Positions 9,101-54,447 of a DNA stretch of 54,447 nt are shown in pieces. Under the pieces are notes generated by a model, which saw nothing but the letters and a program-made list of their open reading frames with translations, did not search any database and was not told the DNA's origin. Both the position numbers and the translations under genes were made by a program. The number at the start of each line of letters is the position of its first letter. The first letter of the stretch is position 1. Source of the DNA: a virus; IMG/VR virus record IMGVR_UViG_3300045579_000282, positions 1-54,447 of that record; one strand, written 5' to 3'.

Positions 9101-11265
9101 TAGCTTACCGTGGACACTCCGTCTCAAGCTATGTCTTGAAGTGCGCGTTGATGGCGTTAGAGGAACGGTTGCTCATTGAGGCAAAGGTGCAGCCGGACTT
9201 CATCTCGAAGGTTCTTGAGCTTATTCTGGAGATCGGCGACTCGAGCTTCACGACCGGGCTCGTAGCTGGCGTGCTTATTGCGCATCCGGCCCTCGTCACA
9301 GAGAAGCTTCTGTCGGTCTTTAAGTGTCCTGAGTTCTTTGGCAGCGACATTGCGCGCACCGTGAGTGAGGCTACCGCTCTGGCTATTCACGGCGGCCACG
9401 ACGGGTTGGACGAAGAGAGGCAAAAAGAACGTTTCGCTAGCAACCATTTGCCGCACAGGCAGCAACACCTAGAAATACTTGTGCTCCAGTTGCAGTTCAT
9501 CCGACCGGATCTACGTGAAGGCATCTCAACCATCCTGGATAAGCATATTGAAGACCTCAGAAAGGCGTCAGATGTGCCAGATGGCTGGCGAATGAGCCTC
9601 AAGCGCATGGACGCTCGAGGTTTGAAGTTTGGTGAGCCGGTCGGCGGAGAGGGACTCGTACCCCTCGAAATTGCAGAGCTTGAGCCCGACTTGAAGGAAA
9701 TAAGTGACAGAGCTGAGTTGAGCACCCGACTCATGAGCCGGTTGGCGACTGTGCGGCTTTGGGCGGCGGCGATAACACAACCGACGCTGTCCTCAGCACA
9801 AGGGGCGGCCGACCGTTTCTCGTCTCCTAGCGAGGTTTACGAGGAGTTCACTCGTCTACGCGTTGAGTTCAAAGGGCACGAGGAAGCAATGCTCATTGGC
9901 TTGGACGATGAAGTACCGTGTGCACTGATTCAGCAGTGGCCGAACGATACCTCTGATGCGCTGCATTGGGCTAAAGAGTATCTCCTTGATGTCACTGCGC
10001 AGCGTCTGGACAACGACGCCTGGGTCCGATCCGGCCACATGACTGGAGAGTTGCGTGCCAAGACGCTCATCCTGCTCGCTAGCATCGACCCGACCCTCCC
10101 GAAGTTGGACGCTGCTCTCGCCAACATCATTACGGAGCCAGTCTGGAAGGTTCGTCGATCCGCGGCGCTCGCCATCTCTGGGATCTTGCGTCCTAAGCAA
10201 CCCATCGTCGCCGAGATACTTACCACGGCACTGGCGCAGTACGCTGAAGCGTTAAACACCACGACTGAAGCAGGTCACCGGCGGCGTCAGCTCGACTTCC
10301 TTGGCGAAGCACGGGAGGCCACTTGTAAGGCGGTGGTGTTAGCCCTTGCGAATGGGAAGTCAGGACATCGACCGACGCCCAGAGGCCTGGCCGCGATAAA
10401 GGAATGGACGATAGCGCTCGATGCTGCCCGCAGCGAGATGCCGGAGACCTGGCGAGTACAAGCACTCACCACCATTGCGCGCTTGATGGCCGATCACGAA
10501 GACAAGCCGACGGTAGACCGATATGACGCCGACGATGTCGACTTCGAAGCACGTTGGGAGGTGGGAGACCTCTTGGCGACTGAGCTGTTGGCGCAGTCAA
10601 CGGAACAGACCATCATTTATGAAGTTCTCGACTATTGCATCGAGAACGCCCCAGAGCTCAGTGAGAGGATTTTGGAGTCAACTCTCAGCGGCTGCTTGAA
10701 GCAAGAGTACGCCAACGCCGACGCATTCTGGCGTGTCTGGGACCGCGCTGCTACAAAGATACTGCCTGATGAGTCTCTCCGCACGTCATCTCGACGTTTG
10801 TACACCAAATATGAGAAACCATTGGCTGTGCTTCTTCTGCGGACCATGCGATGGCCAACGATTTGGCATGACTTGCCGCTCTTGCATCGTAGGCCCAACT
10901 TCCTGGCTGACTGTCTTGCGTCAGCCGGCGACAGTCGGCACGCGCTGGAGCATCTGTTGGCTCTCATGACGGGTGTTGGCCGGACTACTGCAATCCCCTC
11001 GGCCTTGGTTCAGCTAAGGGACGCGCTATACCTTGCTCCAGTTGATTTTTTCGACAACGGGGATGCTCTTTGGAATGCAGAGACTGTGTGTCATGTGGCA
11101 GTTCATGACCACCGTCAAGCGCTTATCCGAGATGTCAATCTTCGTAGGGCAACCTTGGACATACTCGACTTACTGGTCAACGCTGGGTCATCGCTGGCGT
11201 TCCAGTTGCGAGATTATTTGGCGGCAAGTCCGACCGCACCCCTCAACCTCGAATTTAGTTCCTGA
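6181..11265 (+). CDS. Large PD-(D/E)XK-like nuclease / P-loop NTPase, probable Avs/STAND-type anti-phage protein
   Basis: This 1694-aa protein has three visible parts. Residues about 25-130 contain a glycine-rich start, then TDDIYC (Asp72/73) and LQLIQCKRG (Gln90, Lys92). This order matches a PD-(D/E)XK or Cap4/Mrr-like nuclease. A P-loop NTPase follows, with Walker A GGPGTGKS at 334-341, Walker B TVIID at 396-400 and a sensor-like TTRS near 432-435. The remaining roughly 1150 residues are helical and look like HEAT/TPR-type sensor repeats. Nuclease-NTPase-repeat order and size fit Avs-type STAND immune proteins, which recognise phage proteins and then cut DNA. It is a single-gene unit behind a double terminator. 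Alternatives are another NACHT-like NTPase or a DUF4297-type protein. Family membership is inferred from layout and motifs. Confidence 0.7.
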   Translation: MSTKKDTNREPLQGTQLMSTVATGGGGGVFQARVGALYLTNMLTGLPTAFCLHGARVEELRFEARYTGAHTDDIYCRLSDAKGSHLQLIQCKRGLNATAGDKDFIDGLQGAWRDFLGIEKSPFDRACDVLVLATISPAKIANQAAKRLCELARASVDLDDFLQKLESKLFDKKHKDTWNAFKTVSKETLTDKYTEELVFKLLRRLRVDIHDLGTDSSQELSLVQALLASRQPCDSGELVWDGLVSYVQEQGITAGTITRSTWPDTAKEGLRAAISRLTSSRGLGSIAERLSDQAKLQLSLLSTNLPNGIHVTRSECVGRVLAGFDERQLVIITGGPGTGKSAVVSELAPLLLESGPLFFFKAEDLGEPSLAAMQSLNGLSDPVLGIDTLLSTAQPTVIIDSLEKALEAQNPGALEELLALVHKNKGTRLCITTRSYALNGLYTNFLSSFSSQIVDIPLLTDSEISAAVAGSPLEELIAKDSGVKEVLRAPYYLQLAFKSIAAGAVLPSVSGNDLKRTLWIERVAPSKGLPRGLGQRRRTAFDAVCYLRTERFAQFVEAPTDAEAVTSLLQDAVLVQDAADRVAPAHDVLEDWSLFFQVEREVRSAEQDWTVLFTKLGAHAGMRRALRSWTAQKSAENDEDAYALMQAAFRPEPTIPQLWRDEVAIGLLRSERVEDLVAKLGGNGAFDNVALLQRLSHLLRVACKGPTSIDYSHLADDPANKEFIARIGMAAPVGKAWDVMIELVAMAFPTLPPEAHSWVAQLAEDAVAHDDNWYQPSQRVVDVFNIAEQYCRRDSGSWYRGRSVGKRFYALLCRCSGADPSRFNVFVDTLLERISGDTKGRDLYAEERLEFLTNVKHCREPSYFSPDAVHKAFRALYVEDKPREAARRHYSTGWEASLGLSERADHKFFPPSTLQGPFRSLLLYSFAKSVRFVVELCNHAAASFAKCHSEEISIVPPEKSPNGRPHIHGGRLWVAYRGHSVSSYVLKCALMALEERLLIEAKVQPDFISKVLELILEIGDSSFTTGLVAGVLIAHPALVTEKLLSVFKCPEFFGSDIARTVSEATALAIHGGHDGLDEERQKERFASNHLPHRQQHLEILVLQLQFIRPDLREGISTILDKHIEDLRKASDVPDGWRMSLKRMDARGLKFGEPVGGEGLVPLEIAELEPDLKEISDRAELSTRLMSRLATVRLWAAAITQPTLSSAQGAADRFSSPSEVYEEFTRLRVEFKGHEEAMLIGLDDEVPCALIQQWPNDTSDALHWAKEYLLDVTAQRLDNDAWVRSGHMTGELRAKTLILLASIDPTLPKLDAALANIITEPVWKVRRSAALAISGILRPKQPIVAEILTTALAQYAEALNTTTEAGHRRRQLDFLGEAREATCKAVVLALANGKSGHRPTPRGLAAIKEWTIALDAARSEMPETWRVQALTTIARLMADHEDKPTVDRYDADDVDFEARWEVGDLLATELLAQSTEQTIIYEVLDYCIENAPELSERILESTLSGCLKQEYANADAFWRVWDRAATKILPDESLRTSSRRLYTKYEKPLAVLLLRTMRWPTIWHDLPLLHRRPNFLADCLASAGDSRHALEHLLALMTGVGRTTAIPSALVQLRDALYLAPVDFFDNGDALWNAETVCHVAVHDHRQALIRDVNLRRATLDILDLLVNAGSSLAFQLRDYLAASPTAPLNLEFSS

Positions 11266-11461: not shown

Positions 11462-11890
11462 TTATTGATCCAGAGGAAACTGCTCGTGCCACAAGTCGGG
11501 CAGCGCATTGCGCGTAAACCACACCATGCTGACCTCCTGAGGCTGCCTTCCTTGCAGAATGTCCATTACCAACGATGGGTCCAGCAACGTCAGCCTCAGC
11601 AGTTCATTGACTGTGCTCGGGTCAAGCCCTTCCAGTTGGGCAATTTCTGAGCCGCTGCGGACTTCGCCTGCAGCTAAGAGCCGTTGCCAGTAGTGGGCCC
11701 GAGCGAGTCCCTGGAGCAGGGCAATTTGGCTGCTCTTGTCCATGGCCTCGCCATTCAATTTACCCTCAGCCGTTTCGGATGCCATCACAACTGATTTGAT
11801 GCCTGGACGGCGCTTGAGCTTGAAGGGGGTGCGCGTGGTGATCCGAAAAGTGTCTCCGCTAATGTCGTCGCTGGTGCTCGTTTCGCTCAT
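11462..11890 (-). CDS. ParB/KorB-like HTH protein of the recombinase operon
   Basis: This 142-aa protein has a basic N-terminal segment (about residues 15-35). A helix-turn-helix-like region follows at about 75-125, including EIAQLEGLDPSTVNELLRL and then VMDILQGRQP. This pattern recurs in small proteins encoded beside DUF2924-associated serine recombinases and resembles ParB/KorB DNA-binding helices. Its ATG overlaps the recombinase stop by 4 bases (ATGA), so the two are coupled. A likely role is DNA binding that assists or directs recombination, for example as a directionality factor. That is inference from context. Confidence 0.6.
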   Translation of the reverse strand: MSETSTSDDISGDTFRITTRTPFKLKRRPGIKSVVMASETAEGKLNGEAMDKSSQIALLQGLARAHYWQRLLAAGEVRSGSEIAQLEGLDPSTVNELLRLTLLDPSLVMDILQGRQPQEVSMVWFTRNALPDLWHEQFPLDQ

Positions 11891-13230
11891 GCTGGCATCT
11901 CCGTTTCCAGTAACTCTGCGCCGACCGTTTTGGGCTTCATGGTCTCCAGCAGAGGTATCCAGTTATCTGTGCGCCAGCTTACTTCAACCGTATCGTCCTC
12001 ATGGAGCGTGATCCGTTCCACCAGGCTTCGGATGATGTGACTTTTCACCTGATCAAAGTAGTTGTCCCAGATCTTTGCGGTGCGCTGCAAGATGAGCACG
12101 ACCGCCTGCGGTTCTGCAATGCCGGGGTTGATGGACTGAATGCGGTGCCAGTATTGGGTGAGCATCGTGCCCGAGCGCAGGAAATCCAGCACCTGCTTGG
12201 TCACCTCTTGTTCGAGGGGTTCTGCCGGTTGATTCGGAATGCTGCTCTGGCTGGCGCCTTCGTGCATCTTCTTGTTATGCACGTAGTAACGATAGACCTT
12301 CCCAGATTTTTTTTGTGTTGCCATTGGCAGGTATAGGTCACCGCCAGGGCTGTAGATCAGACCACGCAACAGGAACTCGGTGCGCGCCTTCATGGCCCAG
12401 GTGGCCTGGCTCTTGGCATCGCTTGTGCGTGCCATCATCTCTTGCACGCAGTCCCATTTGGCCTGGTCAATCAAGGGCTGGTGGGCCCCAGCGTAGAACT
12501 GCCCCTTGTGCGAAATCATCCCGAGGTAAACCCGGTTTTTCAGGACCTTGTGGAGTGATTGTTTGCAGAAATGCCGACCTGATTTCGTCAAGCGGTTTTG
12601 CTCCTTCATTTGCTGGACCATCAGCGTGGTGGAACCAGTGCTGACATATGAGTCAAAGATCCAGTTCACGGTTTCCGACTCTTGTGGGTCAATCAACAGC
12701 TGACGGTCTTCAACCCGATAGCCCAGCGGCACCACGCCCCCCATCCACAAACCTTTGCGCTTTGAGGCGGCAATTTTGTCTCGTATACGCTCGCCAGTCA
12801 CTTCACGTTCGAACTGAGCAAACGACAGCAGCATGTTGAGCATCAGGCGACCGGTTGATGTGGCCGAGTTGATCTGCTGGGTCACCGAGCTGAAGCTGAC
12901 CTGGTGCTTGTCAAAGACCTCCACCATCTTTGCGAAGTCAGCCAAGGAGCGGGAGAGGCGGTCGATCTTGTAGACCACCACCATGTCTACCTTGCCAGCC
13001 TTGATGTCAGCCATCAAGCGCTTGAGAGCCGGGCGCTCCATGTTCCCACCCGAGTATCCCGGGTCCTCGTAGGTGTCTTGCACAGGGACCCAGCCCTCGT
13101 TGCGCTGACTGAGGACATAGGACAAGCCCGATTCGCGTTGTGCATCAATAGAGTTGAACGATTGGTCCAGTCGTTCATCAGAGGAAACACGGCAGTAGAC
13201 CGCACACCGTTTGGTTATCAGTAAGCTCAT
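11887..13230 (-). CDS. Large serine recombinase (second copy), likely prophage integrase
   Basis: I place the start at the ATG at 13230 (MSLLITKR), which overlaps the DUF2924 stop by 4 bases, giving 447 aa. The resolvase domain has VYCRVSS with Ser16 as nucleophile. DPGYSGG, VVYKIDRLSRS and SFAQFEREVTGERIRDK follow. The recombinase domain contains HQPLIDQAKWD, matching the first recombinase (HQPIIEQGLWD). The region expected to hold a zinc ribbon reads GLIYSPGGDLYLP and has no cysteines. Being next to the phage genes and operonic with DUF2924, it is the best integrase candidate in a window that lacks a tyrosine integrase. Attachment sites could not be identified by eye. Confidence 0.9.
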   Translation of the reverse strand: MSLLITKRCAVYCRVSSDERLDQSFNSIDAQRESGLSYVLSQRNEGWVPVQDTYEDPGYSGGNMERPALKRLMADIKAGKVDMVVVYKIDRLSRSLADFAKMVEVFDKHQVSFSSVTQQINSATSTGRLMLNMLLSFAQFEREVTGERIRDKIAASKRKGLWMGGVVPLGYRVEDRQLLIDPQESETVNWIFDSYVSTGSTTLMVQQMKEQNRLTKSGRHFCKQSLHKVLKNRVYLGMISHKGQFYAGAHQPLIDQAKWDCVQEMMARTSDAKSQATWAMKARTEFLLRGLIYSPGGDLYLPMATQKKSGKVYRYYVHNKKMHEGASQSSIPNQPAEPLEQEVTKQVLDFLRSGTMLTQYWHRIQSINPGIAEPQAVVLILQRTAKIWDNYFDQVKSHIIRSLVERITLHEDDTVEVSWRTDNWIPLLETMKPKTVGAELLETEMPA

Positions 13231-13709
13231 GCTTCCCCCTTGGCTTTCAGGCCGAAGAAGGCAGGTCCAGACCACTGTGTGCCGGTGATGGTCTTGGCGA
13301 TGGCAGACAAGCTGCCGTAAATCTGCCGGTTGTATTCGTAGCGACCATCGGCCAGCACCTCAACCCGATATTCCTGGCCATCGAATTCCCGAACCAGAGT
13401 TGCGCCGGGCATGGCCACCGCTTTGAGTGGGGATTTGCTTTTGATCTTGGAGAGTTGCTGGCCATAGTCGGCCAGCCTTTCCCGTGTGGACTGGGGAAGG
13501 GTGCCAAAGGCCAGTTCTTGAAATCGGTGAGACAGACGAGATGTCAAGAACTTGCGGTTGGGGTGAACCGGGCGGCGCGGAAAGTGCACATCCCAGACTT
13601 TCCAGAGCTCGGGCATTTTCAAGTCGTCAAGGGCTGCGACCTTGCGCTGGATGGCATTGAGTTGGTCGAGGCTGCGCTGCTCACGCGGGGTGATGGATCG
13701 TGTTTTCAT
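13227..13709 (-). CDS. DUF2924 domain protein
   Basis: This 160-aa protein matches the DUF2924 family. A helical N-terminus with LWKVWDVHFPRRP and LTSRLSHRFQELAFG is followed by a small beta region (LVREFDGQEYRVEVLADGRY) and an SAIAKTITG-type end. The family is habitually encoded next to large serine recombinases, and its biochemical role is unknown. The ATG at 13709 is preceded by an AAGGAG site, so the upstream in-frame Met is not used. Its stop overlaps the recombinase start (ATGA), and its start overlaps the stop of a small upstream gene. Confidence 0.85.
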   Translation of the reverse strand: MKTRSITPREQRSLDQLNAIQRKVAALDDLKMPELWKVWDVHFPRRPVHPNRKFLTSRLSHRFQELAFGTLPQSTRERLADYGQQLSKIKSKSPLKAVAMPGATLVREFDGQEYRVEVLADGRYEYNRQIYGSLSAIAKTITGTQWSGPAFFGLKAKGEA

Positions 13710-17484: not shown

Positions 17485-18498
17485 TCATTTATTGATATTT
17501 TTTTGCAATTCAGCGCATGTGTTGATGATTTCGGAAAAACTAGGTTGGTGCGTCGCAAGCAATCCATCTTCCAGCATGGCGACGTAGTCTTTCTCGAGCG
17601 CCTCTAGAGCACTTCCATCTGGGATGATCTGAATTTCAGTGCTGACGGCTGCCTTGTAGTCAATTGAGTTTTTGCTGGCATCTTTTTCCGCAAAAAACAT
17701 GGACTTGTGCTCAGCTACTGCATTGGCAAGTTCTAGGTCAGCGATCGCAGTTTGGGCATGTCCCGAGTTGGCCATGGCGGCCAGGTCGTACCAATGCCTT
17801 GAATAACGCTCACCGCGCAATCGACCTTGGCGGCAGTACACATGCGCCGCTGTGGCTTTTTCCCAGAAAGTGCGTTCAGCGGCCATTACCAAAGGCTGCG
17901 CCTTCGGGAACACAATTTCATTGATTGCCGGTGCCATGTCGCAGGTGACGGCATGACGCTGGTGAGGCTCACCTGTGGCACGCCCACCAAATTCCAGCTG
18001 AATGGTGGATGCCGCATATCCGGTACCTACCTTGATGGCCTCATAGGCCAGGATCAGCTTTTCATTTTCATTCCCTGCAAGCGACAGGGTGGCCTTCAGA
18101 CCATCTTTTTGCATGGCTGTAAGAAGGATCGGAAGTACTTTGCCCTCAATCCAATGTGGCAATCGTTCACGAACCCGGTCGGTGATTTTTTTTGCTTGAC
18201 TGGGTGAGGCAGGGATCGGATTGCCATCGCGCAGAAGTTCTGGAACCACCTCGCGGATGTCGTAGGTCAGATCAATGTCTTCTGAGAAACGGTCGATGAT
18301 CTTGTAGACCTTGGACAGCGAGGTGCCACCTTTGAAGGTCAATTTTTCCGCAAGGGCTGACCCGTAGATTGCAGACAGAGTCCATACCACCCAGATGTCT
18401 TTTTCCAGAAGGTGAGGCGGTCGGCCGGTCTGAGCTGCCGCGACTTCGAGTGCTTCAGCCTGATCTTCGCGGCTGAGAGTGAACCATGAATCAGCCAA
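17485..18498 (-). CDS. AbiEii/AbiGii family nucleotidyltransferase toxin
   Basis: This 337-aa protein has the AbiEii nucleotidyltransferase signature. KGGTSLSKVY lies at residues 56-65 and RFSEDIDL at 70-77, with the metal-binding acidic residues Asp74 and Asp76. Farther on, RTFWEKATAAH and ERYSRHWYDL (about residues 205-240) match the later conserved motifs with Lys and Asp. AbiEii-type toxins transfer nucleotides to targets such as tRNA and stop growth, giving abortive phage infection. It starts at a TTG with a good GAGGTGG site and overlaps the antitoxin gene by 8 bases. Length and motifs look complete, so it should be active. Confidence 0.92.
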   Translation of the reverse strand: MADSWFTLSREDQAEALEVAAAQTGRPPHLLEKDIWVVWTLSAIYGSALAEKLTFKGGTSLSKVYKIIDRFSEDIDLTYDIREVVPELLRDGNPIPASPSQAKKITDRVRERLPHWIEGKVLPILLTAMQKDGLKATLSLAGNENEKLILAYEAIKVGTGYAASTIQLEFGGRATGEPHQRHAVTCDMAPAINEIVFPKAQPLVMAAERTFWEKATAAHVYCRQGRLRGERYSRHWYDLAAMANSGHAQTAIADLELANAVAEHKSMFFAEKDASKNSIDYKAAVSTEIQIIPDGSALEALEKDYVAMLEDGLLATHQPSFSEIINTCAELQKNINK

Positions 18499-19084
18499 TT
18501 GCCACCTCGCTTACTGCTTTTGCCATCCAGCTCGGCAATCTCGCGCGAGCCTGGCGCATGGCCTCCCATTCCTGAGTAGGAAGCTTGCTTCTGAGCACTT
18601 CCAGGATCATGGGGGCTTGTTCAGGGCCGAGCCAAATGAGAGCACGAATGGCTTTGCCTGCAGGGCGTTTGCCCAGCAGCATTTGCCAGCGGTTGCCGTG
18701 CTTGAGCTCTACCTCTCTATTTCCCAGTTTCAGTCGCCGGGAAGGACCAGAAGTGAGGTAGACCTCCCGTGTGGGGACCTGTGTGGTCAGCCCCAGCGAA
18801 TTGGCCTCTGCAGCGCCGCTGGCCACCACAGTCTCTCCACTGGTGGACTCAATCGCTTCCATCACGGATTCTGTAGAGGGAGGGCGAACGCCAAACCGGC
18901 CCTGAATTGGCAGGGAATAGGCACCTCGGCCAACTCTGAGCAACTTTCCTTCGCGAGCCATGCGAGAGAGGGTCTGATCAATCGCAGCTCGAGAACCTAG
19001 GTGCAGGAACTCCTTGGGCGAAAGCAGTCCTCCCTCGGGGAGAGATTGCGCTTGCGAGAGGATTGAGTGGGCGAGTTGGCTCAT
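18491..19084 (-). CDS. AbiEi-type antitoxin (winged-helix regulator)
   Basis: This 197-aa protein has an N-terminal winged helix (SRMAREGKLLRVGRGAYSLP, about residues 39-58). It is followed by a C-terminal domain of the AbiEi type. Antitoxins of this family both counteract AbiEii and repress their own promoter through the winged helix. It overlaps the toxin gene by 8 bases. A perfect 10-bp inverted repeat lies 13 bases upstream of the ATG and is its likely operator. It belongs to the same broad family as the DUF6088 protein at 5155-5658 but shares little sequence outside the winged helix. Confidence 0.9.
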   Translation of the reverse strand: MSQLAHSILSQAQSLPEGGLLSPKEFLHLGSRAAIDQTLSRMAREGKLLRVGRGAYSLPIQGRFGVRPPSTESVMEAIESTSGETVVASGAAEANSLGLTTQVPTREVYLTSGPSRRLKLGNREVELKHGNRWQMLLGKRPAGKAIRALIWLGPEQAPMILEVLRSKLPTQEWEAMRQARARLPSWMAKAVSEVAIG

Positions 19085-41832: not shown

Positions 41833-42422
41833 CCACCATCATCCTTCTCGGCGAGCTGGGCAAGCGCTTCGGGCGCAGGCACAAGATGGCTGTGGCCACT
41901 GCTGCGGAAGCGGTGCGTGCCCTGTGCGCGAACTTTCCCACCTTTGAGCGAGAGCTCGTGGCTTCAGGTGAGCGAGGTGTGGGCTACCGGGTGCTGGCCG
42001 GGCGGGACGCCTTGAATCTTGATCGGCTGCATGAGCCCACGGGCCAGCAGCACATCACGATTGCACCTGTAATCTCCGGTGCTGGGGGCAATGGGCTGGG
42101 CCAGATCCTTTTGGGGGCGGCTCTGATCGCTGTGTCCTGGTGGAACCCGATGGGCTGGGCTGCGGCGGGATCGTTTCTCTCGCAAGCCACGCTCTATTCG
42201 GTGGGTACGTCCATGATTTTGGGAGGCGTGGCCCAGATGATTGCTCCGACGGCCAAGTCTTCTGACCCTTCCGAGCGACCAGAAAACCAGCCGAGCTACG
42301 TTTTCAACGGCGCTGTGAACACCACGGCCCAGGGGCATCCCGTGCCTGTGGGTTATGGGCGGCTGATTGTGGGGTCTGCCGTGATCAGCGCAGGCATTGA
42401 TGTGGATGAGATCGCTGTATGA
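41829..42422 (+). CDS. Tail assembly protein I-like (lambda gpI)
   Basis: This 197-aa protein has a ubiquitin-like N-terminal domain (ILLGELGKRFGRRHKMAVAT), then a loop with a Gly-rich hydrophobic segment (VISGAGGNGLGQILLGAALIA). The C-terminal part contains YVFNGAVNTTAQGHPVPVGYGRL, a hallmark of the lambda I family. It overlaps K and J by 4 bases each. It is needed for tail tip assembly. Confidence 0.88.
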   Translation: MTTIILLGELGKRFGRRHKMAVATAAEAVRALCANFPTFERELVASGERGVGYRVLAGRDALNLDRLHEPTGQQHITIAPVISGAGGNGLGQILLGAALIAVSWWNPMGWAAAGSFLSQATLYSVGTSMILGGVAQMIAPTAKSSDPSERPENQPSYVFNGAVNTTAQGHPVPVGYGRLIVGSAVISAGIDVDEIAV

Positions 42423-45400
42423 GCACCCAGAGCACTTCTCTGATCATTGGCGCAGGTGGTGGAAAAGGTGGGGGCGGCAGCGCTCGCGTGGCCCAGGAAG
42501 CGCCCGACAGCCTGCGCTCCAAGGCTTATGCCCGGGTGGTTGACCTCGTCTGCGAGGGTGAGATCGAGGGCTTGGCCGCTGGCCTGCAATCCGTCTACCT
42601 GGACGACACGCCTATCCAAAATTCGGATGGCTCGTACAACTTCACCGGCGTGACGCTGGAGGCGCGCACAGGCACCCAGCAGCAAAGTTATATCCCCGGC
42701 TTTTCCTCTGTGGAAAACGAGGTCTCGGTCGGGGTGGAATGCAAATTCGGTCAGCCCGTGGTGCGCTCCATCACCGACCCGGATGTGGACGCTGTGCGCA
42801 TCAAGGTCAGCATCCCGACGCTAACGCTGCAGGACACGACCAATGGTGACCTGAGCGGTACTTCGGTCACTTATGCGATCGACCTGCAGTCCCGGGGAGC
42901 CGGGTACGTGCAGATCCTGCAGGACACGGTTTCAGGCAAGACCTCATCGCGCTACCAGCGCAGTTACTACGTTCCTTTGTCCGGGACTGGTCCTTGGGAT
43001 GTGCGCCTGCGTCGCATCACGGCCGACTCGACGCAGACCAGCCTGCAAAACAAGACCTTCCTCGAGTCCTACACTGAGGTGATCGAGAGCAAGCTGCGCT
43101 ACCCCAACAGCGCGCTGATGGCCTTGCGGGTTGACGCCTCCCAGTTCACCTCGATTCCCAGGCGCAGCTATGACTTGAAGCTCCTTCGGGTTCGCATCCC
43201 GACGAACTACTTTCCCGAGACTCGCTCCTATGCCGGTGTCTGGGATGGTAGCTTCAAGGTCGCCTGGGCGGACAACCCGGCCTGGTGTTTCTATGACCTG
43301 GTGACCAATACCCGCTACGGTCTTGGCAACTACATCCCAGAGTCGCAGGTCGACAAATGGGCGCTGTACCGGGTGGCCAAGTACTGTGACGAGTTCGTAC
43401 CCAACGGGCTGGGTGGCTATGAGCCACGCTTTACCTGCAACCTGTACCTGCAGACCCGGGAGCAGGCCTACAAGGTGGTGCAGGACATGGCCTCGGTCTT
43501 TCGGGGCATGGCTTACTGGTCGGGTGGTGCCATCACGGTCACGCAGGATGCGCCGCAGGATCCGGTTTACCAGTTCACCGCTGCCAATGTCGTCGATGGC
43601 GAGTTCGCCTATCAGGGGTCCTCTGCCAAGGCTCGGCACACGGTGGCGCTGGTCAGCTGGGTGGATCCGGACGATTTCTACCGCCAGAAGGTGGAATACG
43701 TCGAGGACCTCGCAGGCATCGCCCGTTATGGGGTGGTGCAAGCCGATGTGGTGGCCATGGGGTGCACCTCTCGTGGTCAGGCCAACCGGGTGGGCAAATG
43801 GCTGCTGTACTCCGAGCAGTCTGAGTCGGAGATCATCACTTTCCGCACTGGACTCGAGGGAGCAGTGGTCCGACCTGGCGATGTGGTCAAGGTGGCTGAT
43901 GCCAGCCGGGGTGGCATGCGACTGGGTGGACGCATTGCTGCGGCCACAACCGTGAACGTCACGCTCGATCAGGACTTGCCAGCAGGATCCTGGCGGATCT
44001 CCGTGGTGCTGCCCACGGGCGTCGTTGAAGAGCGACAAGTGGGGTCGCTCTCCGGCCAGACAGTGGGGGTGACCAGCGCGTTTTCGATGACCCCCCAGGT
44101 GGGCGCGATCTGGGTGCTGTCTTCTACGCTGGTGGAGGCTCAGCTCTTTCGGGTGGTGCAAGTCGCTGAAAGCGAACCCGGCATCCACGAAATCACGGCG
44201 CTGGCGCACAACCCCAGCAAGTACGTAGCCATTGAGCAGGGCTTGGCCTTGCAGCCTCGTGCCATCACGGTGCTCTCGACCACGCCAGCGGCCCCGACGG
44301 GGCTGACCGTGACCGAGAGCCTTTACCGGGTCAAGGATCAGGCGCTGGTGCTGATCCAGCTCGGCTGGGAGCAGGTCTTTGGGGCACTGGAGTACCAGGT
44401 CACCTACCGCGTCAACGGCGGCAACACCGTCACACTGCCCAAAGTCTCCAGCACCTATCTGGAGATCCGAAACGCTGAGGCCGGTGACTATGTCTTCACG
44501 GTCCGATCTGTGGGGGTATCGGGCAAGCTGGGCAACTCCGCAAGCCTGAGCCAGAGCATTCTGGGCAAGCTCCAGCCGCCAGATGATGTGCAGGACTTTG
44601 TGGTGCTGCGCCGCACGACCGATCTACTCCTGAGCTGGAGTGCCAACACCGATGCCGACCTCTCGGGGTATGAGGTCAGGGTGGGCACAGGGTGGGATTC
44701 GGGTGTGCTGGTGGGGCAGACGGCGGGCACGCAGTTGGTGCACGACCAAAGCGAGTCGGGTCAGTACAACTATCACATCCGTGCCTTTGACACTTCCGGA
44801 AAGTACAGCCAACACGTCACCACCTTCCAGCTCACCTTGCTCGCTCCCTCATCGGTGCGGCAATTCGATGTGGTGCAGTCAGCCAACCGGCTGGAGTTTC
44901 GTTGGCTGCCCAATCCCGAGCCTGAGGTCGTGGCCTATGAGTTGCGAGAGGGGGGTGCCTGGGACACCTCGATCTTCATCGCCGAGGTCAAGTCCAGCAG
45001 TTTCACGCTGCCCTCAGGCTTTGATGGGGAGCGCAAGTTCTGGATCAAGGCAATCGCATCGCCCGGCATTTATTCGGAAGAAGCCACCTTCGTCTCCACC
45101 GTGGTGGCGCAGCCCCAGAACGCCAATCTGCTGGTGACAGTGGATGCGCAGGCGACCCGATTCCCCGGAGTGAAGCATTTCGCTTCGGTCGAATCAGTCA
45201 ACAGCCTGGATGTGCTGCGCATGGACAGCGGGGTGACCCAGTCCGAGTACCTGTTTGAGGTGAATTTGCCCACCAGTTACCGGGCACAAAACACCTTGCT
45301 GGCCAGCATCGGTGCGACTCTGGACGACCGCGAGACCTGGACCTCTGCCAATTACGCCTGGATCAGCTCGGCTGCCAGGCGGCAATGGACCTATGACGGT

Positions 45401-45937
45401 GCACTCAAAAGCATCGAAGCGAGGTTTCAGATGGCCCGTGAGGATGCGCTGCAAGCGGGTGAGCTCTACGGGTGGCGACTCAATGGGGTGCTCGGTGGCT
45501 ACGGAAATCCCGTGAGCGCTGAAGCCATTGGCGTGGGCTATGGCGATGGGCGCTACGGCAGTGGTGTGCTGGTCAAGGACACGACCAAGGTGTCCTGGGG
45601 GGTGAGTATTCCGGGTGTCTTTCATGTGAGCTTCTGGTTCATCCCGAACCAGATCACCACATCGGTCATCTGGACTGCGACAGGGGGAGGTGTAGGTACA
45701 GGGGTGAGCCTCCTCGTCGGCTATGACTCGGTGGCAGGAACCTTCTTTCTGGAGGACCAGCTCTTTAACCGGGTGGTTGTGGCTTACCCCGTGAACGTGG
45801 CTGATCGCATCTGCATCGGTGTGTGCCAGACAGCAACAGAGCGCAGGCTTTTCATCGGAAAGATGGGAGGCGAGGTCCAAAGCGCAAGCCAACCTCTGGC
45901 ACCGACAGCGGGGTATTCGACCCTCAAGCTGTACTGA
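42419..45937 (+). CDS. Host specificity / tail tip protein J-like (lambda gpJ)
   Basis: This 1172-aa protein has the central gpJ sequence, for example KAYARVVDLVCEGEIEGLAA near residue 38 and the WDVRLRRIT-type core. Fibronectin type III-like repeats follow from about residue 620 (APTGLTVTESL, VTYRVNG, DYVFTVRSVG). The last 150 residues are beta-rich and likely bind the host surface. It forms the central tail fibre. The C-terminus would determine host range and is expected to vary. It starts at ATG overlapping I by 4 bases. Confidence 0.92.
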   Translation: MSTQSTSLIIGAGGGKGGGGSARVAQEAPDSLRSKAYARVVDLVCEGEIEGLAAGLQSVYLDDTPIQNSDGSYNFTGVTLEARTGTQQQSYIPGFSSVENEVSVGVECKFGQPVVRSITDPDVDAVRIKVSIPTLTLQDTTNGDLSGTSVTYAIDLQSRGAGYVQILQDTVSGKTSSRYQRSYYVPLSGTGPWDVRLRRITADSTQTSLQNKTFLESYTEVIESKLRYPNSALMALRVDASQFTSIPRRSYDLKLLRVRIPTNYFPETRSYAGVWDGSFKVAWADNPAWCFYDLVTNTRYGLGNYIPESQVDKWALYRVAKYCDEFVPNGLGGYEPRFTCNLYLQTREQAYKVVQDMASVFRGMAYWSGGAITVTQDAPQDPVYQFTAANVVDGEFAYQGSSAKARHTVALVSWVDPDDFYRQKVEYVEDLAGIARYGVVQADVVAMGCTSRGQANRVGKWLLYSEQSESEIITFRTGLEGAVVRPGDVVKVADASRGGMRLGGRIAAATTVNVTLDQDLPAGSWRISVVLPTGVVEERQVGSLSGQTVGVTSAFSMTPQVGAIWVLSSTLVEAQLFRVVQVAESEPGIHEITALAHNPSKYVAIEQGLALQPRAITVLSTTPAAPTGLTVTESLYRVKDQALVLIQLGWEQVFGALEYQVTYRVNGGNTVTLPKVSSTYLEIRNAEAGDYVFTVRSVGVSGKLGNSASLSQSILGKLQPPDDVQDFVVLRRTTDLLLSWSANTDADLSGYEVRVGTGWDSGVLVGQTAGTQLVHDQSESGQYNYHIRAFDTSGKYSQHVTTFQLTLLAPSSVRQFDVVQSANRLEFRWLPNPEPEVVAYELREGGAWDTSIFIAEVKSSSFTLPSGFDGERKFWIKAIASPGIYSEEATFVSTVVAQPQNANLLVTVDAQATRFPGVKHFASVESVNSLDVLRMDSGVTQSEYLFEVNLPTSYRAQNTLLASIGATLDDRETWTSANYAWISSAARRQWTYDGALKSIEARFQMAREDALQAGELYGWRLNGVLGGYGNPVSAEAIGVGYGDGRYGSGVLVKDTTKVSWGVSIPGVFHVSFWFIPNQITTSVIWTATGGGVGTGVSLLVGYDSVAGTFFLEDQLFNRVVVAYPVNVADRICIGVCQTATERRLFIGKMGGEVQSASQPLAPTAGYSTLKLY

Positions 45938-47681: not shown

Positions 47682-48605
47682 ATGCAGAACTACACCGAAA
47701 TTCCATCCTCAACGACGCTGTCTGACTCGTTGTCTCAGATCCTGAACAACGACAAGACGGCGCTCTCACTCTCGAGCGGAACGTCTTTCCCGACGGTCAA
47801 CCTGCAACTGGGCATGCCGTGTTTCAGGACCGACGAGCAAAAGCTCTACATCCTCACGGTGGTCAGCCCTGCTTCGTGGAAGATGGTCATTGACCTCTCG
47901 GCCACTGTCGGCAAGGTGGCCAATGCGGACCTGCTCGATGGCATCGATTCCACCGGCTTTGCCTTGTCGGGGCACAACCATGACGCAGCTTATGCCGCGC
48001 TGGCCCACAACCACAATGCCGCCTATCTGGGCATCACGGCCAAGGCTGCTGATGCTGACAAGCTCGATGGCTATGACTCGACAGCCTTTGTGCGATCAGT
48101 CAACGGTTACGGGCCTGATGCCAATGGCAACTCCAGTGTGCCCATTGATCTTTCGAGCCGTGTGGCCAAGTCCGGCGACACCATGACTGGCACCCTCACG
48201 GCGCCCAGGCTGCAAATTGCAGGCACGGCCAATTATCTGGACATGGTGGATCAGGACTGGGGCACCCGGTATCTGCACCACAACCAGGGGCTCATGGGAT
48301 TTTTGAAATCCGATGGCAACTGGGACATGTACATGAACAACAGCGGTCAGATGTGGACAGCCAACTACGGATGGCTGCACGACTACTTCTTCAGCACCAT
48401 CGCTAACTGTTTCATCGGCAACTGCCCAGGCAACACGGGCAATTGCAGCCCAGTGGGCAACAACGCGACTTCTGTGGTTTCGAACTGCGGTAGCGCATCT
48501 TTTGTCCGCGATGAGCTGGTGGACAACGGCAGCCAGATTTCTGTTCGAAGAACCCAATACAACTTCAACTGCAACTGCAATTGCAACTGTGATTGCTACT
48601 GCTGA
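47682..48605 (+). CDS. Tail fibre with Cys/Asn-rich C-terminal tail
   Basis: This 307-aa protein starts at the ATG at 47682. The N-terminal 80 residues match phage tail-fibre attachment sequences. Repeats with HNH triplets follow (GHNHDAAYAALAHNHNAAY), then DADKLDGYDS; such HxH motifs often bind iron in trimeric fibres. From residue 243 to the end there are ten cysteines, eight of them preceded by Asn. The last six alternate: C297, 299, 301, 303, 305 and 307. This tail has no match to known fibre tips that I recall. The next three genes include a likely oxygenase and a radical SAM enzyme, which suggests the tail is modified. The fibre call is sound; modification is inference. Confidence 0.7.
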   Translation: MQNYTEIPSSTTLSDSLSQILNNDKTALSLSSGTSFPTVNLQLGMPCFRTDEQKLYILTVVSPASWKMVIDLSATVGKVANADLLDGIDSTGFALSGHNHDAAYAALAHNHNAAYLGITAKAADADKLDGYDSTAFVRSVNGYGPDANGNSSVPIDLSSRVAKSGDTMTGTLTAPRLQIAGTANYLDMVDQDWGTRYLHHNQGLMGFLKSDGNWDMYMNNSGQMWTANYGWLHDYFFSTIANCFIGNCPGNTGNCSPVGNNATSVVSNCGSASFVRDELVDNGSQISVRRTQYNFNCNCNCNCDCYC

Positions 48606-48618
48606 TCCGGGGAAACAA

Positions 48619-49197
48619 ATGAGCGATTTGACCAAAATTTTCCCCGCTCCGGTGCTTCGCATCCAGGAGCTGTTGAGCCCCACTGAGGTTGAGCAGGCGA
48701 CCGAGCTGGCCATCAAGGCCAACGAGCGCCTCAATGACCATCAGGTCCCGTACTCCCGCACCTACCGAGACAGCCTGGACTTCATGTTCCCGGAGTTCTT
48801 CAAGCCCATATTCCGACGCCTGCGCCGCAGCATCGAGGACGAGTTCAAGTGCAGCGTCAGCAACATGGTGGGGCGCGAATCCATATTTCGCTACGGCCAG
48901 CACCTGCCTTTCCACACCGAGCCGCACGCTGATATTTCTTGCGTGCTGTGGCTGGACTTCCCCGCAAAACCCGATCCATCCAGGCGCGACTATTCGGGCA
49001 TGTTCTGCCTGCACAACCCGCACCTCCTGTTTGGTGGCCGCGCAACAGCCGTGTTTGGCAACATCAACCACATGGAAATGCCATCGCCTGGTGATGCCTT
49101 CGTTTTTCCCTCCCACATGCCGCACTTTGTGTTCCCGTACAACGGTGAGCGCCCTGGCGTGGAACTTCACTTTGAGATGCTTGCGGAGGCTGCATGA
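48619..49197 (+). CDS. 2OG-Fe(II) oxygenase-like protein
   Basis: This 192-aa protein starts at the ATG at 48619, 13 bases after the fibre stop. It has the pattern of 2-oxoglutarate-dependent Fe(II) oxygenases. PFHTEPHADIS gives H99-x-E101, or alternatively H103-x-D105, as the first metal pair. FPSHMPHFVFPYNGERPGVELHF gives His169 and Arg178, the latter for 2OG binding. The family hydroxylates proteins or small molecules. Placed between a Cys/Asn-rich fibre and a radical SAM enzyme, its target is plausibly the fibre tail. It overlaps the next gene by 4 bases. Substrate is unproven. Confidence 0.7.
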   Translation: MSDLTKIFPAPVLRIQELLSPTEVEQATELAIKANERLNDHQVPYSRTYRDSLDFMFPEFFKPIFRRLRRSIEDEFKCSVSNMVGRESIFRYGQHLPFHTEPHADISCVLWLDFPAKPDPSRRDYSGMFCLHNPHLLFGGRATAVFGNINHMEMPSPGDAFVFPSHMPHFVFPYNGERPGVELHFEMLAEAA

Positions 49198-49895
49198 AGC
49201 TCGTTACCTTCAATGTCAGCGTCGATGAAGAAAAGGCGGTGCGTGTAGAGCAAACCGCTGACGGCTACACAGTTTCCTTTGCTGGCGCATCCATCAACAT
49301 CGGCGTGCAACTTTTCAAGCAGGGCGAGCTGCAGTTCCTGATGTATGGCAAGCAGTATCAGAGCGAGGTTATTGGCATCGTTTCTCAGCGCGAATATGTC
49401 GACAGCCGAGATGGTCTGACGATCCTGGCTCAGCACGGCCTGACCGATGGCCTGGGCTGGTTCTACTTCGGTGAGACCGCCGAAGAGGCCTGTCTGTGCA
49501 TCACCAAAGCCATGACGACGCAATGCCCATTCGGCATCGTGCAGCCGGGTAAGCCCCGTGATGTTCTGCCAGGCATCTTCCCCGACAGCGAAAGGCTGGG
49601 GGTTCGGAACCTAGCAAAGATCGCGCTGCTGCGCAAACTCAACCCGCTCGACAGCCTTGCCGCCCTGGAAAAACAGGTCGACTTGCTCAGTTCCCTGGTC
49701 ATCCAACTGGCCAACCTGGTGCCTGGCCAAGAAGACATCGCCTTGATTAACCACCTCCAGCACATCATCAACGATGCCAGCGCCAATGCGGGCAAGAGCG
49801 ACGATCAAACCGTCGCCAGCGTGTTGTCCTTCAAGATGGCCCTGCGCCAGGCGCAGGCCGATTACTTCGCTGCACGCGACGGAGCCACATCATGA
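49194..49895 (+). CDS. Hypothetical protein of the fibre-modification operon
   Basis: I do not recognise this 233-aa protein. The N-terminal half has short strands (LVTFNVSVDEEKAVRVEQ, then YTVSFAGASINIGVQLF) and the C-terminal half is helical (LDSLAALEKQVDLLSSLVIQ). It overlaps both the oxygenase and the radical SAM gene by 4 bases, so all three should be co-translated. It could be a substrate-recognition or scaffold partner of the modification enzymes. A virion part is also possible. Confidence 0.6.
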   Translation: MKLVTFNVSVDEEKAVRVEQTADGYTVSFAGASINIGVQLFKQGELQFLMYGKQYQSEVIGIVSQREYVDSRDGLTILAQHGLTDGLGWFYFGETAEEACLCITKAMTTQCPFGIVQPGKPRDVLPGIFPDSERLGVRNLAKIALLRKLNPLDSLAALEKQVDLLSSLVIQLANLVPGQEDIALINHLQHIINDASANAGKSDDQTVASVLSFKMALRQAQADYFAARDGATS

Positions 49896-51332: not shown

Positions 51333-51716
51333 ATGCCTGAACCTACAAGCTCTGGAGTCGCAGGAGCGGCTGCCGCCTACAAAGCCATTGGGGGTGCTGC
51401 TGGAGCGGCCGCTGGTGGTGCCACCCTGGCGGCGGTTGTCGTGATGCTCATGACGCCACCCAGAACCATTCGCGAATGGACGGTCGGCTTGATCAGCACT
51501 GTCGTATCGAGCATCTGTGGCGGCGCAATCACCGTCGAGTATTTCCAGCTGCATCACTGGGCGTTTTCAACGATCGGTCTGTATGCCATGGGCGGGGTGA
51601 TCTTTGCTTGTGGCTTGCCGGGTTGGGCGATGGTGCGCTGGTTGTTCAACTTCATCGACGAGCGACGGGATGCATCGATTGACCAGGTTGCCAAAGATGT
51701 GAAGGAGCTGCTGTGA
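51333..51716 (+). CDS. Putative holin
   Basis: This 127-aa protein has about three hydrophobic stretches: residues 21-41, about 50-70 and about 75-100. It begins with a Gly/Ala-rich segment and ends in a charged tail (NFIDERRDASIDQVAKDVKEL). A GGAG site precedes the ATG. It is followed by an endolysin overlapping by 4 bases, so it should form the membrane hole in the lysis cassette. The sequence family is not identified, so the call rests on membrane segments and position. Confidence 0.65.
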   Translation: MPEPTSSGVAGAAAAYKAIGGAAGAAAGGATLAAVVVMLMTPPRTIREWTVGLISTVVSSICGGAITVEYFQLHHWAFSTIGLYAMGGVIFACGLPGWAMVRWLFNFIDERRDASIDQVAKDVKELL

Positions 51717-52177
51717 TACCTGCCGAGTTCATCATGCGGCTATCTAAGCCAGCAATGGAATCCCAGCAAAAGTCTGGGGTTCCTGCCAGCATCACGATCG
51801 CTCAGGCGGCACTTGAGTCTGCCTGGGGTGAGTCAGGCCTTGCTAAAGCTGGGAACAACCTTTTTGGGATCAAGGCCGACAGCCGGTGGAGGGGCGAAAC
51901 GCTGACCTTAAACACTCGGGAGTTCATCAAGGGGCAATGGCTTGTTGTTCCAGCCAAGTGGCGAAAGTACGCCAGTTGGCAGGCCAGCATCGATGACCAT
52001 GCTGCATTCCTCAGAGGCAATCCACGCTATCAGCCATGCTTCCTGTGCCAGACCACTGGGGCATTTGCGCGTGCGCTGCTCAAGGCTGGCTACGCGACCG
52101 ATCCCTCCTATGCAGACAAGCTGCTCGGTTTGATTGCCCAGCACAAGCTCTTGGCCTTGGATCTGGAGTCGAAATGA
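51713..52177 (+). CDS. Endolysin, GH73-type glucosaminidase
   Basis: This 154-aa protein has a FlgJ/GH73-type muramidase core. SITIAQAALESAWGESGLAKAGNNLFGIKAD contains the catalytic Glu in LESAWGES near residue 45, read in part here. KWRKYASWQASIDDHAAF follows. It cuts peptidoglycan to release phage. No signal sequence is seen, so holin release is likely. It overlaps the holin and Rz genes by 4 bases each. Confidence 0.9.
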   Translation: MIPAEFIMRLSKPAMESQQKSGVPASITIAQAALESAWGESGLAKAGNNLFGIKADSRWRGETLTLNTREFIKGQWLVVPAKWRKYASWQASIDDHAAFLRGNPRYQPCFLCQTTGAFARALLKAGYATDPSYADKLLGLIAQHKLLALDLESK

Positions 52178-52710: not shown

Positions 52711-52899
52711 TTCAAGAAAAAAACGACTCAATCAACCCGTAGAAAACTTGCAATTCATTCGATTTCAGGCCTTCATGTCCAACATAATGTCACTGGTGAA
52801 TTGCATTGTAATTTCATGATGCGAAACAAATGCTGAGCTGGTGCAAGTGTCTGCTCAGACAGTTTGCCGGGTGACAATTACTCTGCAAGATTAAATTTA

Positions 52900-54447
52900 A
52901 TGGAACAAAAAAGCGGCATCCCAGTTATTGATCTTTTCGCTGGACCAGGTGGTCTTTGCGAAGGCTTTGCATCTCTTGTTCGTGGCGGAACACGTGAGTT
53001 CGACATACGTGTTTCGATTGAAAAAGATCCCGTGGCTCACAGGACCCTTTCACTGCGGGCGCTGTTTCGGTCATTTCCGGTTGGCAAAGTACCAGAGCCG
53101 TACTACCAATACATAAGGGGAGAGATCTCTCGCAATCAGCTTGAAAACGATCCAGCGGTCAAACCATTTGTTGCCAAGGCATACAGCGAGGCTCGCTGTG
53201 CAGAGTTGGGCAAGGATGACCACAGTGAAATTGATGGATGGATCCGCGAGGGGCTTGCTGGAGCAAAGGACTGGGTCCTGATTGGTGGTCCTCCTTGTCA
53301 GGCCTATTCCCTAGCCGGTCGCGCACGGATGCGCGGCAGCAACCCCAAAGAGTTTGAAGCTGACAAGCGGCATTTCCTTTATCGCGAGTACCTTCGGATC
53401 ATCAAGGAGTTTTCTCCTTCTGTTTTCGTCATGGAGAACGTGAAGGGGATGCTGACTTCCCAGCACTCGGGGTCACCAATTTTCGACCGCATTCTTGGTG
53501 ATCTTCGGTCTCCCGGAAATGGGCATGAATATCTCATCCGCTCATTTATTGTTCCAGGTGAAATTCAGAACCCCGATGACTTCGTCATCAAGTCAGAGGA
53601 ACTTGGAATTCCGCAAAGTCGACATCGGGTGATTCTTTTTGGTATCAGGGCTGACGTTGCTGACTCCGTCCCAGACCTGATCCAACATCCCGAAAGATTC
53701 AGCCTCGCTAAGGCGCCACGAGTTACTGCACGGGAAGCACTGGATGGATTGCCTGCGCTTCGCAGCAAACTGTCAAATCGATTTGACGGAATGCCCGACT
53801 CCATTGCTAATTGGCAGAAAGCTCTCGTAAATGGCCTGAAGATCCTTGAAAAGAAAAGGAGCGGTGTGCCTATTCGGGTCCTCGAGCGAGCTCAATGGGC
53901 GGTGACTAAGTCATGGATTCACAAGTCAACTGGCGGCTTGTTTATCAAGTCAGATGTGTCAATGGGTGGAGCCCTGGCATCCTGGTATCAGGATGCCAGA
54001 ATTGGTGGGGTTACTCTGCACGAGACACGGAGCCATATGGAGTCCGATCTTCATCGGTACCTCTTTGCATCTTCATTCGCTCGTGAGGAAAAGCGATCTC
54101 CAAAACTGCGAGATTTTCCCGATGCAATGCTTCCGAGTCATGAAAACGTGAATAGTGATTCAACTCCATTTGTGGATCGATTCCGTGTCCAGCTACGCCA
54201 CCAGCCATCCACAACGATCGTGTCCCATATTGCCAAGGATGGGCACTACTACATTCATCCCGAGCCCTCGCAGTGCCGGAGCTTGACGGTTCGAGAGGCT
54301 GCGCGCTTGCAGACGTTCCCCGATAACTATTTCTTCGAGGGTAACCGAACGCAGCAGTACCACCAAGTGGGGAATGCTGTCCCGCCGCTGTTGGCCCGGA
54401 AAATCGCTGAAATTGTCCTCAGACTGTTGCAGTCGGCCCGACGTTGA
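52900..54447 (+). CDS. C5-cytosine DNA methyltransferase (orphan)
   Basis: This protein is about 515 aa from the ATG at 52900; an upstream in-frame TTG is possible and no strong ribosome site is seen. It has all core C5-MTase motifs in order. DLFAGPGGLCEGF binds SAM (residues about 9-21). GGPPCQAYSLAGR has the catalytic Cys. ENVKGM and QSRHRVILFGI follow, and QVGNAVPP closes the core. The region between the last two motifs is long, as expected of a target-recognition domain. No restriction partner is adjacent, so it is probably an orphan phage MTase that protects against host restriction. It is AT-richer than the late genes, suggesting separate acquisition. The gene ends exactly at the window edge. 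Confidence 0.93.
   Translation: MEQKSGIPVIDLFAGPGGLCEGFASLVRGGTREFDIRVSIEKDPVAHRTLSLRALFRSFPVGKVPEPYYQYIRGEISRNQLENDPAVKPFVAKAYSEARCAELGKDDHSEIDGWIREGLAGAKDWVLIGGPPCQAYSLAGRARMRGSNPKEFEADKRHFLYREYLRIIKEFSPSVFVMENVKGMLTSQHSGSPIFDRILGDLRSPGNGHEYLIRSFIVPGEIQNPDDFVIKSEELGIPQSRHRVILFGIRADVADSVPDLIQHPERFSLAKAPRVTAREALDGLPALRSKLSNRFDGMPDSIANWQKALVNGLKILEKKRSGVPIRVLERAQWAVTKSWIHKSTGGLFIKSDVSMGGALASWYQDARIGGVTLHETRSHMESDLHRYLFASSFAREEKRSPKLRDFPDAMLPSHENVNSDSTPFVDRFRVQLRHQPSTTIVSHIAKDGHYYIHPEPSQCRSLTVREAARLQTFPDNYFFEGNRTQQYHQVGNAVPPLLARKIAEIVLRLLQSARR

Follow-up and report, generated by a model that had tools for sequence, protein, structure and literature searches.

A fiber that ends in alternating cysteines

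Why would a phage tail fiber end in a run of alternating cysteines? The window, that is, the whole 54,447-base stretch of a virus record analyzed here, carries terminase, portal, and serine recombinase genes, and in its tail module it encodes a fiber whose C terminus reads ...NFNCNCNCNCDCYC (Table 1). The protein is laid out as an N-terminal attachment part, HNH/collagen-like repeats, the fiber motifs GDTMTG and WLHDYFF, and a Cys-rich C-terminal tail. Its match to phrog_8443 and its place behind the gpJ-like tip protein identify it as a tail fiber; with the gpJ-like tip and tail proteins upstream and a lysin downstream, the gene sits at the expected place of a distal fiber. The genes of the fiber, an oxygenase-like protein (P0002), a protein without a family name (P0003), and a radical SAM/SPASM enzyme (P0004) are closely spaced on the same strand.

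Table 1. Features of the fiber locus in window coordinates
Feature	Position	Strand	Match or remark
Lambda gpJ-like tail tip attachment protein	42419..45937	+	PF24801 E 2.2e-44, PF13550 E 2e-29
Tail protein directly 5' of the fiber, 396 aa	46480..47670	+	Weak H-type lectin-like end, PF09458 E 0.011, below cutoff
Tail fiber protein, 307 aa	47682..48605	+	phrog_8443 tail fiber, E 7.5e-6
Asn-Cys-rich tail, residues 243-307, ten cysteines	48408..48602	+	
Core CNCNCNCDCYC, six alternating cysteines, residues 297-307, exact C terminus	48570..48602	+	
2OG-Fe(II) oxygenase-like P0002, 192 aa from ATG 48619	48619..49197	+	phrog_81 E 3.7e-11
P0003, 233 aa, no family name	49194..49895	+	Four-base overlap with each neighbor
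Radical SAM/SPASM enzyme P0004, 457 aa	49892..51265	+	phrog_1802 E 1.6e-60
Lysin (glucosaminidase), end of tail module	51713..52177	+	PF01832 E 3.1e-38

Eleven cysteines occur in the fiber (residues 47, 243, 248, 255, 269, 297, 299, 301, 303, 305, and 307). Ten of them lie in the last 65 residues, eight (243, 248, 255, 269, 297, 299, 301, and 303) are directly preceded by Asn, and the last six alternate with single residues from 297 to 307, all exactly as an earlier, sequence-only reading of this DNA had counted them. The window contains 427 stop-bounded ORFs that reach 60 aa; of these, the fiber alone ends in C.C.C, and it alone holds at least 5 Cys within 12 residues. When its last 65 residues were shuffled, the C.C.C.C.C.C run appeared in 29 of 200,000 shuffles, and the NC pairs equaled or exceeded the observed number (7 inside the 65) in 10 of 100,000.

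The tail is read as protein. Its last 12 codons differ from those of 11 near relatives by 1 to 5 synonymous changes and by no amino acid change; these synonymous-only core changes and the mix of AAC/AAT and TGC/TGT codons bear out the codon-by-codon agreement that had been claimed for the tail DNA. Varying codons and synonymous core changes also rule out a DNA-repeat artifact, and a frame or strand error is ruled out by 307 open codons in a frame kept in homologs. A rare oddity of a single virus is likewise ruled out by the motif-, enzyme-, and body-based surveys described below. The same surveys overturn the earlier view that such Cys density is rare in virion tips, as this type of tail recurs in many unrelated fibers.

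Several other genes of the window lie outside the tail module. A C-5 cytosine DNA methylase gene occupies its right end, past the lysis genes (52864-54447; PF00145 E 8.8e-46). Two large serine recombinases on the minus strand (2896-4320 and 11887-13275; phrog_95, E 2e-85 and 3.5e-100), about 7.5 kb apart, flank a gene pair that we take to be possibly Fic-type and a very large ORF (6181-11265) that we take to be NTPase-like, perhaps a defense cargo. A further gene pair at 17485-19084, whose first gene matches only an unnamed PHROG, presumably resembles an AbiEii-type toxin and its antitoxin.

Linkage of the tail to a radical SAM/SPASM enzyme

Do the tail and the enzyme belong together? Linkage was tested from the motif, from the enzyme, and from the fiber body. 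The exact NCNCNC-stop pattern (TAA or TGA) was found in at least 120 loci of viral contigs; among the matches listed, 65 form the end of in-frame ORFs 90 aa or longer and 53 are shorter closed ORFs, taken as chance matches, with two short matches that run off their contig left out (one of them, L089, has the enzyme). Where at least 2.5 kb of downstream sequence was present, the enzyme lies 3' on the same strand for 33 of 38 long NCNCNC ORFs versus 0 of 34 chance matches among those listed (Fisher P 1.5e-15, an overstatement because near-identical contigs occur in all sets). This is the outcome of the check for co-occurrence between NC- or CxC-bearing fiber C termini and radical SAM genes proposed in the sequence-only reading. 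The other 5 of the 38 listed (L099, L110, L118, L131, and L142) are NCNCNC proteins of 184 to 202 aa with no enzyme in the available DNA; they seem to be a small number of other proteins with otherwise NC-poor ends, and they are possibly modified by an enzyme encoded elsewhere or possibly keep free cysteines.

The second test started from 180 loci picked by the enzyme alone, the window included, 146 of which have at least 4 kb upstream. A same-strand Cys-tail ORF precedes the enzyme in 125 of these 146 loci, compared with 7 of 146 on the opposite strand (all ORFs, looser rule), and in 105 of 115 loci with enzymes above 500 bits. A stricter version that required C.C.C and a greedy choice of ORFs, which drops ORFs overlapped by longer ones (e.g., L001), gave 106 of 146. 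Among the 21 loci without a tail by the rule, six (L033, L189, L276, L299, L301, and L325) show near-miss or Hint-borne cores by eye and lie outside the count of 125; the remainder do not, and they include the distant Bacteriovorax enzymes as well as loci that are cut or broken.

The third test used the fiber alignment minus its tail and covered the best 80 of 115 relatives, 75 of them with a complete ORF. Tail and enzyme are both present in 62 of the 63 that have at least 2.5 kb downstream (best 80 of 115 relatives), and the 63rd, L405, which is the contig of L299, carries the core ahead of a Hint domain, plus the enzyme. Fiber homologs without a nearby radical SAM gene, named beforehand as the observation that would speak against the substrate idea, thus number 0 of 63 among these best 80 of 115 relatives. 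The linkage persists in the marine T4-like loci L010-L028, whose fiber has no tblastn match to that of the window and whose enzyme is ~48 to 51% identical. All of these linkage counts include near-identical contigs, and the enzyme-test loci hold 88 distinct C-terminal tails. The tail and the radical SAM/SPASM enzyme are linked across very different phages, and all three tests find one feature of RiPP systems, a gene-encoded core beside a dedicated modifying enzyme.

Linkage could also arise by neighborhood only, with enzyme and fiber co-traveling as a tail-end cassette and not acting on each other. Tail-fiber regions are cassette-like, and radical SAM-related cassettes differ between the host-recognition regions of two similar pelagimyophages (PMC7029224, in part). 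However, the Cys tail recurs, together with this enzyme, at the ends of fibers that otherwise share no detected similarity, of one collagen-like ORF, and of ORFs that are very short, and a traveling cassette would not create the motif at these ends, so we regard this explanation as very improbable.

Composition and carriers of the tail

Over the 88 distinct tails, the residue before a tail Cys is Asn in 349 of 496 cases, Asp in 49, and Ala in 44. Cys is the final residue in 66 of the 88, and the last Cys lies 0 to 5 residues from the end in all 88. In some relatives from Alphaproteobacteria and Parasutterella, A, Y, S, or H precedes or separates the cysteines, indicating that Asn is not strictly required. 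The carriers vary as well, from siphovirus-like fibers of the window type to marine T4-like proteins, short ORFs, and one collagen-like ORF (L203); for short tail ORFs of 125 to 173 aa, the enzyme starts within 20 bases (among the matches listed). In Parasutterella muris (L232:2653-4977), two radical SAM genes are accompanied by three consecutive small tail-fiber-like ORFs with many CxxC repeats.

Always based on Cys, terminal in its chain, and beside one invariant SPASM enzyme, the tail is most likely a built-in RiPP-like substrate of that enzyme, judging from sequence and gene order. The sequence-only reading had offered metal binding, disulfides, or modification by neighboring enzymes as roles for the tail, and the linkage data favor the third. 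A metal- or Fe-S-binding tip, or a disulfide staple of the fiber trimer, with the radical SAM enzyme acting elsewhere, does have parallels: CxC runs serve as metal ligands in numerous proteins, and some phage needles and T4 fibers hold iron at the tip via HxH motifs. Such a tip would nevertheless leave the pairing with the enzyme unexplained (63 of 63 among the best 80 of 115 relatives; 33 of 38 among the matches listed), and a disulfide staple would need no radical SAM enzyme; we consider this alternative quite unlikely.

The enzyme and its candidate chemistry

The enzyme family shows the cluster motif of radical SAM enzymes and the auxiliary-cluster motif of SPASM proteins throughout. C73, C77, and C80 of the CX3CX2C motif (residues 73 to 80) are invariant in 22 diverse aligned members, as are the seven cysteines of the SPASM region at 307-391 (C307, C326, C366, C369, C375, C379, and C391). 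P0004 belongs to the radical SAM proteins by PF04055 (34.7 bits over a cutoff of 29.5; one marine relative scores 26.1, below it) and to the SPASM proteins by TIGR04085 (31.8 bits over 27). The family is large, with at least 558 candidate stretches in IMG/VR and 100 in GTDB genomes, and it is already catalogued as phrog_1802, "radical SAM domain-containing protein," with no assigned substrate or function. In Achromobacter phage JWF, the enzyme is annotated "anaerobic sulfatase-maturating enzyme," and the fiber is annotated for its Hint part only. Distant enzymes (32 to 35% identity) also occur in Bacteriovorax-type genomes (L222, L224, L225, and L229) with no nearby Cys tail; one of these neighborhoods holds an apparent ABC transporter, and no convincing small Cys-rich peptide was found beside the Bacteriovorax enzymes.

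What reaction might the enzyme catalyze? Curated families matched by all 22 aligned enzymes include the PapB, nif11, geopeptide, and QhpD maturases. The best NCBIfam match of the window enzyme is PapB (NF047865, 53.5 bits against a cutoff of 340; best PapB E among the 22 members, 7.8e-21), and its matches to QhpD (TIGR03906, 50.3 bits against 453) and HxsB (TIGR03978, 39.1 bits against 370) also stay below cutoff. Since the window enzyme reaches no full-length curated cutoff, the reaction is not readable from homology. Its nearest solved chains by sequence are 8vpo, 5wgg (which we take to be CteB), and an anaerobic sulfatase-maturating enzyme, with YydG among the weaker matches.

NxxcA contains a beta-thioether between Cys23 and Asn20, and freyrasin and the QhpD substrate contain Cys-Asp/Glu thioethers, those of QhpD lying in a dehydrogenase (PMC8326336, in part); PapB also joins directly adjacent residues, although incompletely (PMC9413430, in part). 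These precedents make multiple Cys-Asn/Asp thioethers the first choice, and we hold it slightly more probable than not, by analogy, that the enzyme joins the tail cysteines to Asn or Asp in this way. It may instead modify the tail by other chemistry, such as the C-alpha thioethers of sactionines, epimerization of alternate residues, or Cys oxidation of the sulfatase-maturation kind. The linkage data fit these chemistries too, the solved chains that the enzyme resembles by sequence represent several reaction types, and the two-residue alternation recalls the 1,3-epimerization pattern of polytheonamide (PMC5682303, in part). Against them, Cys is constant while its neighbor varies across the 88 tails, which favors sulfur as the reacting atom, and YydG, in which an enzyme cysteine serves as hydrogen donor (PMC5682303, in part), is among the weaker matches. 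Taken together, we view these other chemistries as a rather unlikely, minority explanation.

Oxygenase and alternative partner genes

The oxygenase is a less regular companion. The open frame of P0002 begins at 48502, and its match to PF13759 (E 9.4e-5, 23.2 bits) falls below the cutoff of 27, which is passed by the 2OG genes of L008 and L009 (40.3 and 33.9 bits). A 2OG oxygenase gene is present in 91 of the 125 tail loci, in two or three copies in 23 of them. The earlier suggestion that the tail might be a substrate of the enzymes next door is favored for the radical SAM enzyme, a constant partner absent from 0 of 63 loci among the best 80 of 115 relatives, but the oxygenase (91 of 125) is an accessory only.

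Nearly every tail locus has one of two further partners: a gene of another cluster (cluster 2), here called the middle gene, occurs in 103 of the 125 loci and the P0003 family in 17, with both in 0 and neither in 5. Their mutual exclusion suggests that the two do the same job. No kinship between them was found by profile comparison (probability 0.2%). The predicted structure of P0003 is moderate (pLDDT 74.8) and has no fold match at E 0.001. That of the middle gene is good (pLDDT 91.6), with a C-terminal Ig-like domain, and over its whole length it resembles only phage proteins without a stated function. Three middle-gene members tried against PHROG had no match, no Pfam family was matched by more than 1 of 41 members, and the alignment is too little conserved to serve as a search query.

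Additional genes surround some loci. In L084:7470-10735, fiber and enzyme are separated by two middle genes plus three 2OG oxygenases. In 7 of 151 loci, the neighborhood of the radical SAM gene includes a tryptophan-halogenase-like gene (in L186, 2196-3428, PF04820 E 3e-96), and halogenation of the fiber is conceivable. In marine T4-like loci (L010:7681-9706, L016, L024, and others), a gene for a DctP-like solute-binding protein (PF03480 E 4.8e-27; 26 of 151 loci) and another gene that weakly matches Asn synthase (28 of 151) come right after the enzyme.

Hint domains behind the core

The core of Achromobacter phages JWF and 2-1 continues into a Hint domain, CFPAGT... (PF05203 E 3e-12 in JWF). 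Hint domains also follow the core in Burkholderia paludis and JWF-like proviruses, four Rhodospirillales loci, a Magnetospirillum MAG, and L299/L301. This hedgehog/intein-like domain stands straight behind the core in 15 relatives and is absent from the window, in which we saw no sign of release of the core from the fiber. All 15 aligned relatives have their last core Cys 0 to 2 residues ahead of the Hint Cys1, and all retain Cys1 together with a His at the block-B place. A terminal His-Asn was not seen in these 15, so that hedgehog-like cleavage would be expected at the core side only. The arrangement suggests, from sequence, that Hint self-cleavage exposes the core and that the follower is removed. 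In a quick tree that covers 59 enzymes and includes 10 Hint rows (L228 left out), Hint gain or loss requires at least 3 changes, two of them forced by starred branches, indicating that the core was repeatedly placed so as to become the chain end.

A proposed route to the mature tip

How might these parts work together? With an NC tail and a dedicated enzyme of the cross-linking type beside it, the fiber tip is probably chemically rebuilt after synthesis. We infer the action of the enzyme on the tail, the type of bond, the roles of the partner and the oxygenase, and a role in receptor contact, as follows. The fiber would bear its own RiPP-like core at the C terminus, on which the radical SAM/SPASM enzyme would act posttranslationally. 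Cys sulfurs would be bonded to the beta-carbon of adjacent Asn or Asp as thioether cross-links, converting the flexible end, CNCNCNCDCYC, into a compact tip that withstands reduction. P0003 in the window, or the Ig-domain protein elsewhere, may escort the fiber tip, acting as an adaptor for the substrate, a chaperone, or an adhesin of the tip, and the 2OG-Fe(II) oxygenase, where present, may hydroxylate residues of the tail or tip. Hint autoproteolysis in some lineages may leave a C-terminal thioester, through which the core could cyclize or join a partner covalently. The mature tip likely touches the host receptor or envelope, a role proposed solely because the core sits at the distal end of the fiber. 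The full picture, a widespread and so far unrecognized viral RiPP class in which a fiber tip of poly-cross-linked Cys is matured by a radical SAM enzyme, exposed by Hint or activated as a thioester in some lineages, tuned by an oxygenase, and used for receptor binding or envelope piercing, is put forward tentatively, at somewhat less than even confidence.

Such posttranslational chemistry has been described for secreted peptides and for a small number of enzymes. If true, our reading describes a novel strategy by which a virus builds the structure that contacts its host, a tip whose chemistry goes beyond the twenty amino acids. Models of phage host recognition would change, structures predicted from sequence would not show the real tip, and natural substrate/enzyme pairs would become available by the hundreds for an enzyme whose substrate motif is very simple. 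It may also explain part of the many radical SAM genes of marine phages. The cultured Achromobacter phages JWF and 2-1 make the reading directly testable.

Comparison with known systems

In the open-access literature searched, preprints excluded, we found no report of a radical SAM enzyme acting on a phage fiber. Related observations include a T4-like genome with 12 radical SAM genes (PMC5332604, in part), the isolated Xylophilus phage Lumi, which is akin to JWF (PMC9959647, in part), and radical SAM genes in Campylobacter phages (PMC3322345, in part). Fiber modification is not discussed in the available portions of these three papers or of PMC7029224.

The closest counterparts are elsewhere. 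Ranthipeptide maturases (PapB, NxxcB, and the SCIFF maturase CteB) are likewise SPASM radical SAM enzymes with an adjoining gene-encoded, Cys-rich substrate. Here, in contrast, the candidate substrate is the end of a virion fiber and not a small peptide, the cysteines are spaced by one residue, and the thioether is a predicted one. The His-Xaa-Ser system pairs a repeat-motif substrate, HxsA, with the radical SAM enzymes HxsB and HxsC; the HxsB model matches the window enzyme weakly, and the repeat is different. We know of no phage and no alternating Cys tail in the QhpD system. Like the enzyme proposed here, however, QhpD is a radical SAM enzyme that cross-links a protein subunit and not a small antibiotic peptide (PMC8326336, in part).
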